Assembly: GCF_000002865.3 (NCBI RefSeq)
Contig: NW_001865047.1
Coordinates: forward strand, 994,937 to 1,058,936
Source of the DNA: Monosiga brevicollis MX1
Taxonomy: Eukaryota > Opisthokonta > Choanoflagellata > Craspedida > Salpingoecidae
Reading direction: 5' to 3'
Length of the DNA stretch: 64,000 bases
The notes under the pieces were generated by a model, which worked only from the letters and a program-made list of their open reading frames with translations, was not told the origin of the DNA and searched no databases. This document shows positions 48,809 through 63,644 of this stretch, in pieces. Position 1 is the first letter of the stretch. Every line of letters begins with the position of its first letter. The position numbers and the translations under genes are program-made.

Positions 48809-50116
48809 ATGATGGCGGTGGTATGGGTCATGTGGCTGTGGGCTGTGGGCTGGGTTGTGAGCGGGGTGGTGGGGGAAGAGGCGCAGATTTTTGTGGACGA
48901 GGTGGGCGACTTGCATTTGGAGGCAGCGTCAACCAACTCGAGTCGGGTGTGGCTTGGATCGACGGATCTGGGGCAGGAGCTGGCTACGCTGCGCGCGGCG
49001 GTGGACGAGCTGCGAGTGGAGAATGCGCGGCTGCGCGCGGAACAAGTTGCTTTGCGCCAGGCTGCCCGCATGACGGGCTCTTGGTGGTTTCGGCACCTCT
49101 ATGACCAGGGCAGTATACCAATACATGCCATTTACGATGGCAACATGGGCTTTGCCGTGGCGGCCGCGGGAAACCTCGTGGCGGTGAGCGCTCCCAAAAA
49201 CAACATAGCAGCGGCGAATGCGGGACTTGTGCACGTGTACAGACGTTACCCGGACGGGTCGTTTAGTCTCATGGTCAACCTGTTCCCACCCAACGCTCAA
49301 GTCGGCGATGAGATGGGGTTTGCGCTGGCCATGGATACACGTGTCTTAATCGTTGGCGCGCGCACCGATCGACAGCTTGAGAACAATGGCGCATTCTGGG
49401 TGTTCGCCATTTCGAACGACGGAACGAGTCTCGATTCTAACCCGCTTCAATTTGTGGAAGGCCCCCTTTCCATCGGTCTGAACTTTGGTCGGTCTCTCAG
49501 CTTGAGCGGTGACCTGTTGGTGGTTGGCGCACGTTGTGATCCTGATAACCTGCCCCCGCCCGACTGCCTCTTCCTTTACCATCGTGGATCCAGCGGCGAC
49601 AATTTTGTATTCGTCAAGGCACTCTCCGCCTCTGCCTTCCCTTCAAGCCGAACCCTTTTGGTCTCGTTGGCCCTGTCCGGCACCCGACTAGCTGTCGCAA
49701 CCCTGAGCGAGACACCCGGCAATTCCCTTGATGGGGCCGCATATATTTTCCACCTGGACACGACCGTGTTGGCGAATGCGAGTCTGACCTGGCAGGCCAC
49801 TCTCTCCAGCGACGAGCCAAACGACCTGTTTGGACGCAGCCTATGTTTTGTCAACGAGATTTTGCTCATTGGCGCACCCGCGCAGGGTGACCACGTTGGC
49901 AGAATCTTGGCCTACGCTCCTTCGTCAAGCAACGGCGACGGTTTAGAGGCCCCATACGGTTACGTCGGCGAGCTGGCCAATCCCGGCCAAATGGATTTTG
50001 CTCGCTTCGGCATGGCCATGAGCACCCACCTCGACACACTCTACGTCTCAAGTTTTCAGCGCCATCCAAACGGCACCATGAGCGACACAGGGCACATCCA
50101 CATTTTTTACCCTTGA
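48809..50116 (+). CDS. FG-GAP beta-propeller surface/secreted protein
   Basis: Single exon, 435 aa. The start is at 48809; the frame is open slightly further upstream but contains no ATG there. It begins with a hydrophobic signal or anchor (MMAVVWVMWLWAVGWVVSGV). A short acidic and beta segment follows, then a coiled coil (LATLRAAVDELRVENARLRA, about residues 58-85). The rest is a propeller of FG-GAP-like blades, each with FG.x(S/A)-h-x-GDhLhVGA: MGFAVAAAGNLVAVSAP, MGFALAMDTRVLIVGA, FGRSLSLSGDLLVVGA, FGRSLCFVNEILLIGA and FGMAMSTHLDTLYVSS. This resembles integrin-alpha-type propellers, which are abundant in choanoflagellate surface proteins, but no Ca-binding DxDxDG loops are obvious. A coiled-coil stalk with a propeller head suggests an oligomeric surface or secreted adhesin (inference). 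Confidence 0.85.
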   Translation: MMAVVWVMWLWAVGWVVSGVVGEEAQIFVDEVGDLHLEAASTNSSRVWLGSTDLGQELATLRAAVDELRVENARLRAEQVALRQAARMTGSWWFRHLYDQGSIPIHAIYDGNMGFAVAAAGNLVAVSAPKNNIAAANAGLVHVYRRYPDGSFSLMVNLFPPNAQVGDEMGFALAMDTRVLIVGARTDRQLENNGAFWVFAISNDGTSLDSNPLQFVEGPLSIGLNFGRSLSLSGDLLVVGARCDPDNLPPPDCLFLYHRGSSGDNFVFVKALSASAFPSSRTLLVSLALSGTRLAVATLSETPGNSLDGAAYIFHLDTTVLANASLTWQATLSSDEPNDLFGRSLCFVNEILLIGAPAQGDHVGRILAYAPSSSNGDGLEAPYGYVGELANPGQMDFARFGMAMSTHLDTLYVSSFQRHPNGTMSDTGHIHIFYP

Positions 50117-55657: not shown

Positions 55658-58600
55658 ATGCGGCGGCGATCCAGCACAACAGCAGCCGCTGCTGGAGATC
55701 GCGAGCCTCGTCAAAAGGTCCAGGTTGCGCACAAGGTATGTCGGGCCGACGCACGGCCTTGTCCTCAGCTTGATGACGGCTGCTGAAATTGATCGACGCC
55801 ATGCTCGTACGATAGGAGGGCCATCTGCTTAAGCGTGGCAAAAACACCAACTCGGCCTGGCGCCGGCGCTACCTGATTCTGTTTGACAGCATGATCGAGT
55901 ATCGACGCTCACAGCGGGACGCCGACCCAGCTGGTTAGCAATAGACGCGGCGCTGCGTCGGTCACTCCAGATGCAGATTCACTAATGTCTCGTGTCTCAC
56001 TCAACCCTACAGGTACCATTCAGCTCAAGGGCGCGCGCCTCAATATCTCCAAGACCCCCGATCCATCCATGGATCTGCTGGAAATATCCTCACCCTCGCA
56101 GGTTGCCACGGCATCCATGCTCCCTCGCAGCTACATGTGTCAGGACGAGCACCCTCATGCCGCCTTTTTACCGCCAACGCGTGGGTGTATACTTTAGGCA
56201 CGCATGTATCTGCTGCAGGGTGGTCCACTCCTGATTCGCGAGTGGGCCCAAGCCATCAGACAGCAAATTGCGCTCTTACCTTCTCGTACGGTCGAACCGT
56301 TTCTGCTCAAGCACCTGTGCGGGTGGCAATCGTACGGCAGGTTTTTTTTTTTAGTTTATTCACAACTCTTTCCTTGCATGCCGGTAGCGGGTGACGCGAG
56401 CGCGAGTGCCTCCTCCTACCACGCTGACACAAATTCGATGATCCTTGTCGAAGCCAAGCCATCCGCCGCCAGCGAACCCGTCAACCTCGGTGCGTTGCCC
56501 TGTCGTGCGCAGCCGCCACCAATGACTTCACGCTCCACGTTCTCATCAGCTTTGCGCCCTTGACTATTAAACTGCTTCTCAGGCACGCGCGCCGGTGGTC
56601 AAGTCGTGACACACCTCACAGACCTAAAACGGGGCTGGCTGGAAAAACAAGGCATTGGCTCGCGAACCTGGATCTGGCGCTGGTTCATCTTGCGCTACGG
56701 CCGCATCGACTATTTCGCCAGCCAAGAGGATGCCCGGGACCAAAAGATGCTTGGCTCTATCGTGCTGGCCGAAGGCGCCAGTTTTTGCTACCCGCATCCC
56801 AAGCGACCCGAGCTCTACTGCCTGGATGTGCGTCGCGTCGCTTCGTGTCCTCCTTGATCCCGGCGATCCATCCGGTGTACCTCATACCCAATTCGTGCTG
56901 TGCAGATATCATCACCCGTGCAAGGCCGCGTCTTTCACCTGCGTGGGCGCTTTGTCGATGTGAAGGAATGGCACGAAACGGTGGGTCGCCCAAACATGCA
57001 CGCCGCTGGAGCCCGTGTTCTTTTCTATACTCCTAGGCCAATTTCCATGTTCTTCCGCTGATGTCCTCGCATGACCTTTCGGTACCTGGTACCTTGGGCT
57101 TACCCTTGTCGGTTATTAGATCAAGCAGCGCCACGCAGACGAGCGACCACCCATGGCCATGGTACAGGCGAGCAAGGGGCATTCGGCCATCGGCGTGAGC
57201 ACCAAAACCCTGCTTCCGCCTTCTCAGCGAGATGTGTCGGCAAAAAACAGCAAACTCGGTGACATTGTGCGCAAGCTGGCCTCGAGCGAGCGCATGTGTA
57301 AAATGTTCTGTGGGGGTGCCGGCTGCCAATATTGCGGTGATCTCGAGCGTTGGCTGCACAACGGTGCGCATGAACCCATGACCCCCGACCTCCCCAACCT
57401 ACTTTGGCGCTTGTCTGCTTGCGGCACACGCTCAACCTATTGTCATCACTCATCGGGGGCTTCCCAGATCAAGCCATACCAGGCATCTTCTCAACTTGGA
57501 TTACGAACGATATTCTGGCCCTGGCCCGCCCAACGCAGCGCGGGGTAGACGAGTTTGGCCTCCTTGACAAATTGGTGGAGAGTCGCGTGCGCGTTCTTAT
57601 CAATCTCGAGGACCACGGCGAACACGCCAACTGCGGCCAGGTGCGTTCAACGTGTACATACTTTTTTTTTTGTTTTTGTTTTTTTGTTTTTGTTTTTACG
57701 GCTCCGATAATTTCTGCTTGACCCAATGGCCTCTGCAGGGCAACTTACCGGGCGGGTTCAGCTACGACCTTGACGCCTTTGCCGCACGTGGTGTGGCCGT
57801 GCACCTTTTTGGCTGGGCTGATTATGGTGTGCCCTCCATGCAAACGGCGTTGACAATGGTTAAGGTGGCTGCACAAGCCCTGGATCTTCAAGTCGCGGTG
57901 GCCGTGCACTGCCACGCCGGTGCGAGTCCTGTCTAAAATGCCTTTTTCACCGCAGCTCTACAACCTGTCTGCATGGCGCCTCGTAACAACCTGACTCATG
58001 TCGATAGGGCTGGGACGCACGGGCATGCTTATTGCGTGCATCCTTGTCTACGTCCTCAAGGTCCGCTTCAAAGTCTTGTCATGCAAGTGTGCCCCAGCAA
58101 CGAAACATGTTCCAAGCTCACTTGATTCTGGTGTTTCGTGGCTGTTTGCTTCGCGTTTGTAAAGTATACGGCTGAGCAAGCGATTGCGTTTGTCCGCCTC
58201 CGACGTCCGGGCTCAATTCAGACGGGCGAGCAGGTGGGCGTGCTCAATGCATGATGACGTAGCATTGGCCGCAACATTCCTTACGAGCGCGGCGCAACGG
58301 TGCGGTGCAAGGATAGGTGCGCTTCGTGCGCGACTTCTGGCTCTATTTGCGACCACTGCAGCTTGTCTATCCACGAACGTGCGTCGAGGGCTGTGTAGAG
58401 CACTTTGCTCATACGGCGCCAGCCTCGAGTGCGGCCAGCGGAGAGGAGGGTGCTAACACATTGCGAGCTGTGGAAGTCAATGGTGACGGTCCCAGCTTGC
58501 GAACGTTTGTGAGGCAGGCAGCACAGCTTCACGGTGCCGATGACCAAGACCAGGTCTGTGCCTTGCCTCGGGAGGAACCTCATCAGGGAAGGGGGCGCTT

Positions 58601-59311
58601 TTAAGGTATCAACATGTCGCTGTGGCTCATGGCAATATGCTGGTCCATGACCTTGCGTGAACATCTGTATGTTAGGAGGTCAAATTGCCGTTGCTCTCGG
58701 CTGTGTACGGCTCGGTGCGTGCCGCCTGCGGTGACCTGGACGCAGAGGCTCTGGCAGCCGAGCTAAATCGGTATGTGCATTGGCCCTGCAAAGCGTCATT
58801 GCGAGCGCACGGAACTGCAAAGGCTATTCTTGCTTATCGGTCTCGCACGCGTGTAGGTTTTGCCGAAGCGTACCCAGCCCCGAGGATATGGAAGTGCTGC
58901 GGACGCTAATGGAGCATGCCAATCAAGACTTTTGGGTTCCGTGGCGGGGGGTGGATTTGGCGCAGACGTTGTGGCTGCTGGAGGTCTGGCTGGCGCAGCT
59001 GGGTCAAAGCCCGCTGTCGTCGGAGCAGCTGGAGGTCTTGGAGGATGGCCGCTTCTCGTCATTAGATTTACCCAACCGACAGCTTTGGGCTGTTTTCTGT
59101 ACGCTGTGGGCCGCGTCACAGGCCCTTGAGCCCTTGGCCCTTCTCGCAGGCCTTTGGCTGGGTGTGCCACTAGAGGGGGCTGCGCTCGCTTCAGAGGTCA
59201 AGCAAGTTCAGTCAAACCTGCGGCAGGCATCAGCTCCGCTGGCTCATCCCCTTTTGGAGGAAGCTCCTGTGCGGTATCGCGCAAAAGCCAGTGAGCCTTC
59301 CTCATCCAGTG

Positions 59312-59371
<60 letters not shown>

Positions 59372-59874
59372 ATTGCTTGACATTCTTGTTTAGCCCAAGT
59401 CCCGCACTGCATCGCCGAGTTTCTTGCTTTGGGGCTTTTGTGCGCGGCCCATGTCTCATTTATTGGTCTGCTTGATAGTTTGAAACGCTTGGGGTCGTGC
59501 AACATGGGATACAGCAGCTGGAGCTGGTTCTCAGGGTCCTGGTGGAGACCGTGTGGCCAGTGGGCGAGGTGCCGGCATGGGTGCCAGGCTCAGAGCTCGT
59601 CAAGACGGCAGACGCAGAGCCAGACAGATTCGGTGCTGGTGAGGCGGCAGGGCGGTCGCGGGCCGTTGCACATGAAGTGGAGCTGGTGGATGTGTTGCCT
59701 GGGGGTGAGGCTGGCGCGGTTGGTGATGCCAATGGCGCGTCTGCGAGCCTCGGCTCAGACGCCGACTTGCTGGATAACGATGGCCCTCTCGGCCCGAATG
59801 CACCCGGTCTGGAGGAGGACGACGACATGGCGCCGTTGGAGGATTACTTTGTTGGCCTGGACGTCCGTCTGTGA
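55658..59874 (+). CDS. PTPDC1: PTPDC1-type dual-specificity phosphatase with two PH domains
   Basis: A multi-exon gene. Exon 1 (55658-55735) starts MRRRSSTTAAAAGDREPRQK. A first PH domain follows (EGHLLKRGKNTNSAWRRRYL, 55816 on; closing helix GGPLLIREWAQAIRQQIALL near 56220-56280). The second PH domain is at 56600-57000 (LKRGWLEKQGIGSRTWIWRW; closing FVDVKEWHET). Next is a short Cys cluster (KMFCGGAGCQYCGDLERWL). After a donor at about 57365 comes the phosphatase: AIPGIFSTWITNDILALARP, VRVLINLEDHGEHANCGQ, VAVHLFGWADYGVPSMQT and the active site VAVHCHAG-LGRTGMLIACIL (HCxxGxxRTG with catalytic Cys and Arg), then FVRLRRPGSIQTGEQ and VRFVRDFWLYLRPLQLVYPR. The Cys cluster and core match animal PTPDC1, linked to cilia and centrosomes. 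The long C-terminal part is helical then acidic, ending FVGLDVRL. A (GT)n tract sits in its last intron. Confidence 0.88.
59313..59370. repeat. (GT)n microsatellite in an intron
   Basis: 58 bp of GT beginning at the donor site of the last PTPDC1-type intron. The first GT of the repeat can serve as the splice donor. Confidence 0.95.
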
Positions 59875-60382
59875 GTCTGCAGCAGTTTTATTAGAGAGGA
59901 AAAGAACCTGAACAAAATCGAATGATGAATGCTATAACATGTGCTTCGGGAAAGGGTCTACGCAAGGGTGAATTTAACTGGCCTCACGGCCACACACGGT
60001 GCCGCGAGTTGTCGTTGGTCAGCCTCTAACGTTGTACCCGCCTCTATGCACCCGGGCACGACAAGGAACGCTGCATGCAACCGCTGAATACCTCACAAAT
60101 CGTAGTTCGTATGGGGAATTCGACGCTCGTCTGCAGATTCGAACAAACATGATGACAGTTCGCTGTTCATAACATGACATGATGACGCTGTTCATAACAT
60201 GACATGATGACGTAAAACGAAAAACAAACAAATAAAAAAATCAAGGACTTTTGAGAAAAGTGACGAAGGGGGGGGGATGCTTTGATCGCATTTCTCACAC
60301 TGCCGCTGGCTCGTACGATCTCAATTCACCCGTTTGCCTGCCACTGAACCCGCGGCACTGCCGTTCTCTTACAGAGTCCTTC
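59875..60382. other. Intergenic and 5' leader of the CD-NTase-like gene
   Basis: Contains a 25-bp direct repeat (about 60163-60212), AATAAA at about 60231 as a possible poly(A) signal of the upstream gene, and a TTCTCTTACAG acceptor just before 60375, implying an intron in the 5' UTR of the gene at 60383. Confidence 0.55.
60163..60212. repeat. 25-bp direct repeat (x2)
   Basis: Two copies of GCTGTTCATAACATGACATG plus GATGAC in tandem, in the spacer between the phosphatase and CD-NTase-like genes. Confidence 0.85.
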
Positions 60383-61381
60383 ATGATGAGCGTTGCTCCT
60401 CCAGAGTCTCCTGAACTGAGCGTTGCCGAGCGCTTCGCTGCTGTTCGACAGCGGATCGAGCCCGGCGACGACGTCCAGCTTGCAATTGAGCGCCACGCGA
60501 TCGTGCGTGAGGTGCTCCTCGCTCAGGACCTTGTCGTGGACACGTTTCTCACGGGCTCCTGTGCGCGCAACACCGCCATCAAGCCGTTGCACAACGTTGA
60601 GATGTTTGCCGTGTTCGAGCCCCGTGGCGACGAGCACGACGCCCTCTCCGAGGCACGCGACCTGATCAACCAGTTTTGCAACGTCCTCAAGCGCGACCTT
60701 CCTGACCGCCTGCCGATTGAAGAAGTCAATCTTCAGGGGCGCTCCGTGAGCATCCTCTTCACGGACACCAGCCTCAGCATCAATGTCGTACCTTCTTTTG
60801 CCGACGGTGACACGTACAAGATCCCGGACCGCGCCCTCGGCGGCTGGATCGCCTCAAACCCCAAGGCTGCCAAGGCCGCTACCGAAGAGGCCAACGAGCG
60901 TAGCGGTGGCCGCCTTGTGCCACTCATCAAGCTGGCCAAGCGCTGGAACCAGTTCGCGGGGGAGCGTTCCCGCTTTTATAAGAACGACCAAGAGCAAGTT
61001 CAGCACTTCCCCGAAGGCCAGGAGGTACCCCAGGGCTGGCGCCTGGTCAAGCCCTTTAAGAGCTTCCACCTCGAGGTGCTGTCCGTCACCTTTTTCAAAG
61101 CGGCCCCGGCCGAATCAGAGCGTCGCAACTTTGCCATTTTGTTGATGGCCTTGTACCAAAACTTTATGCTCAACATCGCACCACCGGGCATGGCGGGACA
61201 GTCTCTCAACGCCTACTTGATGGGCGCGGCTGGCCAGCCGAAGCACCCCTTCCCGGCAAGCGATATCAATCGCCTGGTGATGGAGGCCACCAAGGTTGCC
61301 AACGACGCCTGGTTCGATGAGAAGACCAATCCGACCGAAGCGCACCGTTGCTGGCGCTCGCTCTTGGGCGATGTCTACTAG
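60383..61381 (+). CDS. SMODS/CD-NTase-like protein lacking catalytic aspartates
   Basis: Single coding exon, 332 aa; ATG at 60383 with a second at 60386, just downstream of a 5' UTR splice acceptor. The fold is that of bacterial CBASS-type CD-NTases (SMODS; relatives of DncV and cGAS): helix, then the nucleotidyltransferase strand FLTGSCARNTAIKPL, INVVPSFADGDTYKIPDRAL, GGWIASNPKAAKAAT, LVPLIKLAKRWNQFAG, and KPFKSFHLEVLSVTFF near residue 230. Family members carry G-S...D-x-D and a third Asp before V-V-P. Here the GS is kept, but D-x-D reads N-V-E (LHNVEMFAVFE) and the third Asp reads Asn (SINVVPSF). The frame is intact and GC-rich at third positions like an expressed gene. It is probably a pseudoenzyme or nucleotide sensor. 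No signal or TM span. No second CBASS gene is visible nearby. Confidence 0.85.
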   Translation: MMSVAPPESPELSVAERFAAVRQRIEPGDDVQLAIERHAIVREVLLAQDLVVDTFLTGSCARNTAIKPLHNVEMFAVFEPRGDEHDALSEARDLINQFCNVLKRDLPDRLPIEEVNLQGRSVSILFTDTSLSINVVPSFADGDTYKIPDRALGGWIASNPKAAKAATEEANERSGGRLVPLIKLAKRWNQFAGERSRFYKNDQEQVQHFPEGQEVPQGWRLVKPFKSFHLEVLSVTFFKAAPAESERRNFAILLMALYQNFMLNIAPPGMAGQSLNAYLMGAAGQPKHPFPASDINRLVMEATKVANDAWFDEKTNPTEAHRCWRSLLGDVY

Positions 61382-62420
61382 GGCTCGGTCTCCCCTTCTA
61401 CCACCAAGCTGCTCTCCGTTCTCTCTCTTCCTTCTTCGCCTCTTCATGACACAAACTAGGTCATTAAACCGGTTGTGACGGTGGCCATTCTACAACCTCT
61501 CCGACCGCTGCCGCTCCTTGTAAATTGAATCGTCCAGCACCACCGCGGTCTCGGCCCCGTCTTCGCTTCTCTATTCTCAGCCGGCAGCGTTGCCGGTTGG
61601 GCATGGAGAGCACCAGAACATGAGCAGGGGGAGGCTTGGAGAAGCATGTGGTGTCGAGGGAGCGAGGGGCAGAGGAGAATCGAGGGTCGAAAGATGTGCC
61701 CAGCGTCAGATTAAAAGTCGATCTGACGAGAGTCACCTGCCATCTCAAGGGCGGCACTGACGAGCCTCTAACTGCAACGGCGGCCAGCACTAAATGCAAT
61801 CGGCAACGTCGACACATACGGCTAAAAACGTGCGCGGGCTCAGGCGAGACCGAAATTTTCAGCTTGCCCCCCTCGAAGAGACAGAATGCACCCGAAAATC
61901 GAATCATGAATGCCACCTGCGGATCGGGGAGGCGCAAGTACATGTAAAGGAGATTTCAGGATGCATTGGGAGAACCGTCGTATCCCCATGTCCCAAACCT
62001 TGACATGAGGGGTATATTCGGGGTGTGGGGGTGACTTGCTTGTGCAATCAAGGGGGAACATGAGCGACTTTGTCCCGGGGCTTGGCCATGCCACGCTCTT
62101 CGTGGTCGACCAATGACGAGAGGTGCACAACAACTGAATGACAGGGGTCAGTTCAAAGCCCTGGCTCCATGTCATTTGACCTGTGGTGACTGTAATTTGA
62201 AACAAACCCAGCCTCCCACTGGCAACAACATTGAGCATGCAGTCAGTCAGTCAGGCTTAAAGGCTGAAGAAAAGGGGGTACAAGCGAAGGAGGACACGTA
62301 CACAAACGTTCTGGGGACACCCCCCAACAGTGCATGATCAAGCACCATCGCAAATGTGTTTGTTCCTTTTCCCTTGGGATGCTGCATCAGCCATGATGAT
62401 TGTGGGGGGCTGAGCACAGC

Positions 62421-62497
<77 letters not shown>

Positions 62498-63644
62498 ATA
62501 CGCGCTTTGCAAACACTTGTTTGGCTTGCATGCATGCAAGTTTGCATTTTGGCGCCGAGTCGCAAAAGAACAATGCGTGGCGGGCGGGAGAGGAGCATGT
62601 GCGTCGCCGTTTGTCCTTCGGGCAGGCATGGGTGAGGTTTGGGTGAAGGGCGTCATTGTTGGGGGTGCCTCTTGACCAAGCTGATTCTGCAGCAACCCTC
62701 GTTGTGAGCGGGACGATTGATCAATCGCCGCCGTCGATGACCGGCATGTGATGCAGAACGGGGTCGTCCCACCTCTGTGTATGCCTTTCTACGCATCGGA
62801 CATGATTGTGCATTGTTGGAGCGTCGTCGCTAGCATACTTGCTTCTGCTTCAAGTGTGCAGCGTCAACAACGCACCATGCATGCCAACCTTCAGGCCCGT
62901 CACCCTCCAGCCCACCTGGTTGCCGTCCCACCTGGCGCGCCATTTCTTTTGAGCAGCTTCACCCAGCCCCGCCTCCTGCTTGTTTGCCCTGTGCGAAACA
63001 GGCACGACCCGACACGGCCTAGTCGTTAGCAGGAAGGGGTGAATTGCATTATTTTTCTTTCGGACCCCACTGTCTCCACTGTGCGGACGACGCCCGACCA
63101 CGGGGATTGCTTCCGTTTCACTCCGCACCTCCGGCACCACCAGTCGCTGCTCGCCTGCTCGCCTGCCGTTCGTCTTGTGCTGAAGCTGCTGGGCATTTGT
63201 TTGTTGTGATCATCCGTGTCTCGGCTCGCCAAGGGTCGTAGCTTGCCGCCGTCCGTCAGACTTGTTCCTTTGCAACGCCGCCCGTCCCCGGCAGTCGTCG
63301 AGTCCTGCGTGCGACGCTTGTCCCCCTCTTTGCCCAACGCTGCTGGTCGGGTGCTGCTGGTTTCCATGCGTCGCTGCTGTCCACCGGGGCTGATTGCCGG
63401 CGAGCCCAAGTTTCCTTACTCATACATCCCAGAGCCCGCCCTTCATTCGACCGCCAAGACTCAAGTTTGCTCACGCTAACGGATCTGCTTTGGGCCATCT
63501 TCATTTGCTTCTTGGTCGACCAGTGTCGCCCTCCTCGCTCTTGTGGCGTGCCATCGCACAAGCGAGTGCACCGGGCCTGAGCAAGCTTGTCTGGGCAAGC
63601 CGGGACCAGACCTTCGCCGGCCGGCAGCTCAACCCCATTTTATC
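61382..63644. other. Long intergenic region
   Basis: No credible protein frame on either strand. It contains a (GT)n tract at 62421-62496 and a CAGTCAGTCAGTCAGG repeat near 62240-62255. The sequence before 63645 is presumably promoter of the right-edge gene. Confidence 0.5.
62421..62496. repeat. (GT)n microsatellite
   Basis: About 76 bp of uninterrupted GT dinucleotide, the source of Cys/Val and His/Thr shadow frames. Confidence 0.97.

Follow-up and report, generated by a model that had tools for sequence, protein, structure and literature searches.

Catalytically dead proteins are known in the wider cGAS/OAS/CD-NTase fold; MiD51, in the cGLR branch, combines a dead active site with nucleotide binding. 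In the OAS branch, the catalytically dead OASL is reported to be kept for signalling or scaffolding (PMC4420275). The eSMODS proteins, of which 12 sequences were published, form a eukaryotic superfamily that was placed inside bacterial clade D, close to a subclade with Myxococcus, and has choanoflagellate members (Culbertson and Levin, 2023; PMC10732462); the words inactive, pseudo, active site and Monosiga do not appear in the main text of that report. The choanoflagellate Monosiga brevicollis also has an active 2'3'-cGAMP synthase of the CD-NTase fold class, Mb-cGLR1, with E62, D64 and D142 at its active site, a Mab-21_C domain and a gene beside STING (Li et al., 2025; PMC12424679).

Here we describe a gene in a 64,000-nucleotide stretch of the M. 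brevicollis genome (the window) whose product, the window protein, belongs to the SMODS branch, in contrast to OASL and MiD51. Like eSMODS, it has a choanoflagellate host and SMODS as its top Pfam domain; PF01909, reported in all eSMODS members (PMC10732462), gave no match in it or in two intact sister proteins. Compared with the bacterial clade D CD-NTases (PaCdnD, 6p82/6p8j; BcCdnD; EcCdnD), it has Asn, Glu and Asn in place of Asp, Asp and Asp, it carries a long insert before S227, and no CBASS effector was recognised near its gene, at 49-64 kb of the window. The best overall explanation, which we hold with moderate confidence, is that the window protein is a eukaryotic SMODS-type CD-NTase turned pseudoenzyme.

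A single-frame gene encodes a SMODS-type CD-NTase

The gene is read in one frame from an ATG at 60383 to a TAG stop at 61379-61381 with no internal stop, which bore out the 332-codon stop-free frame listed by the first-pass annotation (Table 1). An open stretch of at least 331 codons in any forward frame appeared in 1 of 2000 dinucleotide shuffles of the gene. We take the gene to be real because of its homology: Pfam SMODS (PF18144) matched at 49.9 bits (cut-off 26.5), the relative P0001 is 39% identical to the window protein, and the predicted structure has a pLDDT of 92.8, with a two-lobed CD-NTase fold modelled across the full length. P0001 was one of two relatives from the first protein search, the other being 31% identical, and each match covered 96% of the query. 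Oligonucleotide cyclase profiles of PADLOC also matched (best E 5e-44), and the NCBIfam CBASS cyclase model NF041117 scored 116.9 bits, under its equivalog cut-off of 200. The PF01909 nucleotidyltransferase profile gave no match at E ≤ 1, and the intact sister proteins P0001 and P0005 had none at E 0.01 either; searches of the window protein for OAS1_C or Mab-21 domains gave no Pfam match at E ≤ 1. A resemblance of residues 201-222 to MbtH-like proteins (E 0.2) was taken as chance.

GC content at codon positions 1, 2 and 3 was 0.64, 0.41 and 0.77; STING (0.58, 0.44 and 0.66) and cGLR1 (0.57, 0.43 and 0.70) of this genome rank the three positions alike. Sequences resembling a splice donor (GTGAGT, at 59871) and a splice acceptor (TTACAG, at 60369-60374) are present, but the join, taken from the frame ending at 59874 into the CD-NTase frame, is out of frame, and fusion to the upstream gene was rejected. 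The relatives P0001 and P0002 begin about ten residues inside M1 of the window protein.

Table 1. Features of the CD-NTase-like gene, in window coordinates
Feature	Position	Strand	Evidence
CDS without intron for a SMODS-type CD-NTase of 332 aa, metal site substituted	60383..61381	+	Frame, Pfam, homology
G58-S59 phosphate-binding motif, kept	60554..60559	+	GS in 149/149 relatives
N71-V72-E73 at the D-x-D metal motif	60593..60601	+	D and D in 149/149 relatives
N134 at the third metal-site acid	60782..60784	+	D in 145 and E in 4 of 149 relatives
Retained K186 (K178 in the BcCdnD donor pocket)	60938..60940	+	K in 148/149 relatives; alignment
Stretch with protein-specific insert, 40 residues between K186 and S227	60941..61060	+	Longest among 149 relatives is 24
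S227-F-H-L-E231 motif, kept	61061..61075	+	Alignment of relatives

The catalytic aspartates are lost while other invariant residues are kept

One profile search found 330 relatives, 120 of them listed, and a second found 32, adding 29 new ones; 149 were aligned in all. Dead relatives could be under-represented in these counts, since candidates were picked by words in common with profiles to which intact proteins contribute. The metal site was D, D, D in 120/120 relatives of the first alignment, and an acid stood at all three positions in every one of the 149 (145 DDD and 4 DDE), the window protein alone having N, E, N. Where an active CD-NTase has [DE]h[DE] and a third acid, it has N71-V-E73 and N134. 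The first-pass annotation had described a retained GS motif, which is present as G58 and S59, and substitution of all three metal-site Asp; the latter stands as N71, E73 and N134, with the refinement that E73 leaves one position acidic. It had also named a structural alignment with intact acids at the metal site as an observation that would speak against its reading; apart from the Glu at the second position, the alignments of 120 and 149 relatives showed no substitute acid for the first or third Asp. The codons concerned are AAC (N71), GAG (E73) and AAT (N134), and as three separate codon changes they are unlikely to reflect sequencing error.

Sixteen columns were invariant in the alignment of 120 relatives; at these the window protein has lost the three catalytic residues and kept all 13 others (G58, S59, R62, T64, A65, S121, P137, W155, P160, K186, S227, F228 and P268). 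When the columns conserved in at least 119 of 120 were counted, 20 of 23 were kept and the same three were lost. The chance that three random losses would hit exactly the catalytic three is 1 in 560 for 16 columns and 1 in 1771 for 23. At the level of at least 118 of 120, 25 of 30 columns were kept, R37 and I95 differing besides the catalytic three. Because exactly the three catalytic residues were lost and the other invariant ones held, this pattern of conservation favours retention in a non-catalytic role rather than simple decay.

The nucleotide pocket is not wholly unchanged, because C60 occupies a position that is Tyr or Phe in 148/149 relatives and the Lid2 residue is Ala instead of His; in the four intact sisters, too, it is Ala or Thr. 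By its counterpart F194 of BcCdnD, F228 is likely the base-stacking residue. Residues 191-230, which include the insert before S227, were modelled at pLDDT 93-96, and the insert could be a partner-binding or pocket-covering part.

Probable origin of the gene and a possible early decay

In a tree of 121 rows (120 relatives and the window protein), the window protein grouped with P0001 and P0005 at 100/100, on an end branch of 0.77 versus 0.64-0.68. In a second tree, built from 37 of 150 rows, it joined P0001, P0005, P0121 and P0122 at 99/96; the order inside this clade was unresolved, and the end branch of the window protein was the longest of the five members (1.11 versus 0.48-0.85). Since all four sisters, which are metagenome proteins, have an intact triad, the triad was lost on the lineage of the window protein. 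Scans of prokaryote and viral contigs for the sister clade with two motifs matched 219 and 191 stretches, none of them a relative. These scans were narrow, a wider profile having found kin in the same prokaryote collection, and the result is therefore a hint rather than proof that the sisters are eukaryotic.

Among the 120 relatives listed of 330, 12 of the 14 that carry organism names were Myxococcota by name, and the wider profile scan of the prokaryote collection, with patterns that themselves demand the Asp residues, gave 20 loci, 13 of them Myxococcota by name. At two of these loci (L008 and L010) a neighbouring gene was tested, and both had a SAVED domain. The Myxococcota names fit the published eSMODS account, in which the bacterial kin include subclade D04 with Myxococcus xanthus (PMC10732462). 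A plasmid search matched 37 records, all below 60% identity and 2 covering 80% or more; the 20 listed of these were mainly proteobacterial and actinobacterial, which counts against a purely myxobacterial picture, although the collection is itself biased. A phage collection gave no match. The gene most probably belongs with eSMODS and descends from a clade D CBASS cyclase of myxobacterial type.

The rival that survives best, and which we nevertheless consider unlikely, is early decay, in which drift abolished catalysis once the pathway of the enzyme had vanished and the rest of the protein has still to degrade. It would suit a gene for which one copy only was found: with the window protein, PF18144 and P0005 as queries, a search of 39.5 Mb on 57 contigs, which scores best candidates only, gave no second SMODS-type gene. 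It would also suit the longest end branch of a small clade, which is as compatible with relaxed constraint as with new function, and the surroundings, where no CBASS effector or other immune gene was recognised by Pfam (E ≤ 0.01) in six frames across 49-64 kb, introns being able to hide one. However, drift should strike invariant columns at random, and the losses here were 3/3 at catalytic and 0/13 at other columns. The frame is also intact for 332 codons, and the codon-position GC order matches that of STING and cGLR1, although such a bias fades slowly. The lone decaying pseudogene that the first-pass annotation had set against its own reading is therefore lone in the sense of being the only copy found, while its decay is disfavoured.

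Laboratory mutants as a guide to a probably dead, nucleotide-binding site

Single substitutions of the kind seen here have been made in active enzymes. The D73N and D75N mutants of BcCdnD were both reported inactive; D75N was completely inactive and yet bound ATP with Kd values of 140 nM and 5.1 uM, and D73N was crystallised with pppApA alone or with ATP, its Asn itself coordinating Mg (PMC13424991). The PDB sequence 9sa5 has Asn at the D73 place, and the title of PDB entry 4u0m describes DncV D193N in complex with ATP, GTP and a folate. In Mb-cGLR1, D64N was reported to abolish activity (PMC12424679). The pseudoenzyme proposed by the first-pass annotation is thus strongly supported: its first and third Asp have no acidic replacement, and a single Asp-to-Asn change is reported to kill Mb-cGLR1 and BcCdnD.

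By analogy with these mutants, catalysis by the window protein is very unlikely, because the first-position Asn is joined by a third-position Asn, and nucleotide binding is plausible. Since the fold and pocket look intact while the three metal-binding Asp are replaced, the window protein probably binds nucleotides without making a signal. It would be unable to make a cyclic oligonucleotide, and a pocket formed by S59, R62, R120, S121, K186, F228 and E73 should bind ATP or another NTP. The sole remaining acid, E73, aligns with BcCdnD D75, which holds magnesium on the donor triphosphate, and may still do so here. If nucleotide binding alters docking on a partner, the window protein might be a scaffold that senses nucleotides, or it might regulate cGLR1-STING or OAS-like signalling; in animals, OASL and MiD51 play comparable parts. 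On the analogy of those two proteins, a nucleotide-dependent scaffold or regulator is the likeliest role.

A working nucleotidyltransferase, in which E73 and other groups, or Mn, support a slow or different reaction, seems very improbable to us. The metal site still has one acid of three, E-x-D is the motif of cGLR1 itself, choanoflagellate cGLRs are reported to be Mn-dependent (PMC12424679), and the Asn of BcCdnD D73N can hold Mg (PMC13424991). However, the same BcCdnD mutants and Mb-cGLR1 D64N were inactive in those reports, and in the window protein the first and third acids are both gone from a site whose three acids are kept in 149/149 relatives.

The pseudoenzyme reading suggests that a bacterial-type immune cyclase in a close animal relative can become non-catalytic without giving up its fold or most of its nucleotide pocket. 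If the receptor or regulator reading is true, the window protein mirrors in nature the Asp-to-Asn trap mutants made by crystallographers. We know of no earlier dead member of the SMODS branch, and none was described in the literature searched, by title and abstract start, most subscription journals lying outside its scope. Dead relatives being already known in the OAS and cGLR branches, it is the SMODS-branch case that is new within that literature. M. brevicollis is reported to be gene-editable and its STING pathway has already been studied (PMC8592570), which makes the function of an eSMODS-like protein directly testable.

Other CD-NTase-like genes of the genome

STING was identified at L004:3717-4892 (+) by a PF15009 match (E 1.9e-36), and it has a transmembrane domain. 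The nucleotidyltransferase frame of cGLR1 lies at L004:5167-6132 (-), with an intact active site (E, D and D at residues 62, 64 and 142), a Mab-21_C domain and no SMODS match. These are the residues published for Mb-cGLR1 (PMC12424679), in keeping with a genome of M. brevicollis or a very close relative. The two genes lie tail to tail with 268 bases between their stop codons (4896-5163 of L004), whereas cGLR1 was reported beside STING in antisense with 178 bases between them (PMC12424679), so either the gene models or the strain differ. No link of the CD-NTase-like gene to STING was found, the two genes being on different contigs. A partial OAS1_C match at G000:C10:57630-57797 (L032), of 26.3 bits (cut-off 19.9) over profile positions 111-166 of 188, may mark a further CD-NTase-like gene, the third of this genome. 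Searches of the genome for SAVED or Mab-21 (PF03281) genes gave no match, but the controls gave none and PF03281 missed even cGLR1, which makes these negatives uninformative.

For the roles that the first-pass annotation suggested for a domesticated pseudoenzyme, such as a sensor, a decoy or a regulator of an active paralogue, the genome does hold a CD-NTase with an intact active site, cGLR1, but the best-candidate searches gave no second gene of the SMODS type. As a whole, its interpretation is partly supported. By analogy, the cGLR1-STING pair and the OAS1_C-like gene are possible targets of the window protein. A specific form of the regulator reading, that a captured CBASS-type cyclase became a non-catalytic nucleotide receptor or regulator tuning the organism's own cGLR1-STING pathway, is offered tentatively and is in our view doubtful. 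We give little credence to a decoy, to which a pathogen protein attacking CD-NTases would bind in place of the active copy. Decoys are known elsewhere in immunity, and the fold appears kept, as modelled, with catalysis apparently lost. However, the sequence of cGLR1, with Mab-21_C and no SMODS match, is but distantly related to that of the window protein, and we know of no pathogen effector against choanoflagellate SMODS proteins.

Restoration of a D-x-E...D site by A-to-I editing of the mRNA, with AAC and AAT read as Asp, is scarcely credible: both Asn codons differ from Asp codons solely in the first A and an A_deamin gene is present, but the A_deamin matches fall within a single 1.2-kb stretch and so represent one gene, presumably ADAT1, a tRNA enzyme common to eukaryotes, and to our knowledge ADAR editing is animal-specific. 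This A_deamin-domain gene, at G000:C48:318323-319502, was the only one found.

Other features of the window

Upstream of the CD-NTase-like gene, at 55800-59900, two exons are PH-like and a further one is of the DSP phosphatase type (HCHAGASPV), with Pfam matches under the curated cut-offs; these are probably one gene. An FG-GAP repeat match (PF14312, E 9e-17) lies at about 49480-49550, and a long TG/CA simple repeat at about 62400-62560 is read as HTHTHT or CVCVCV frames.
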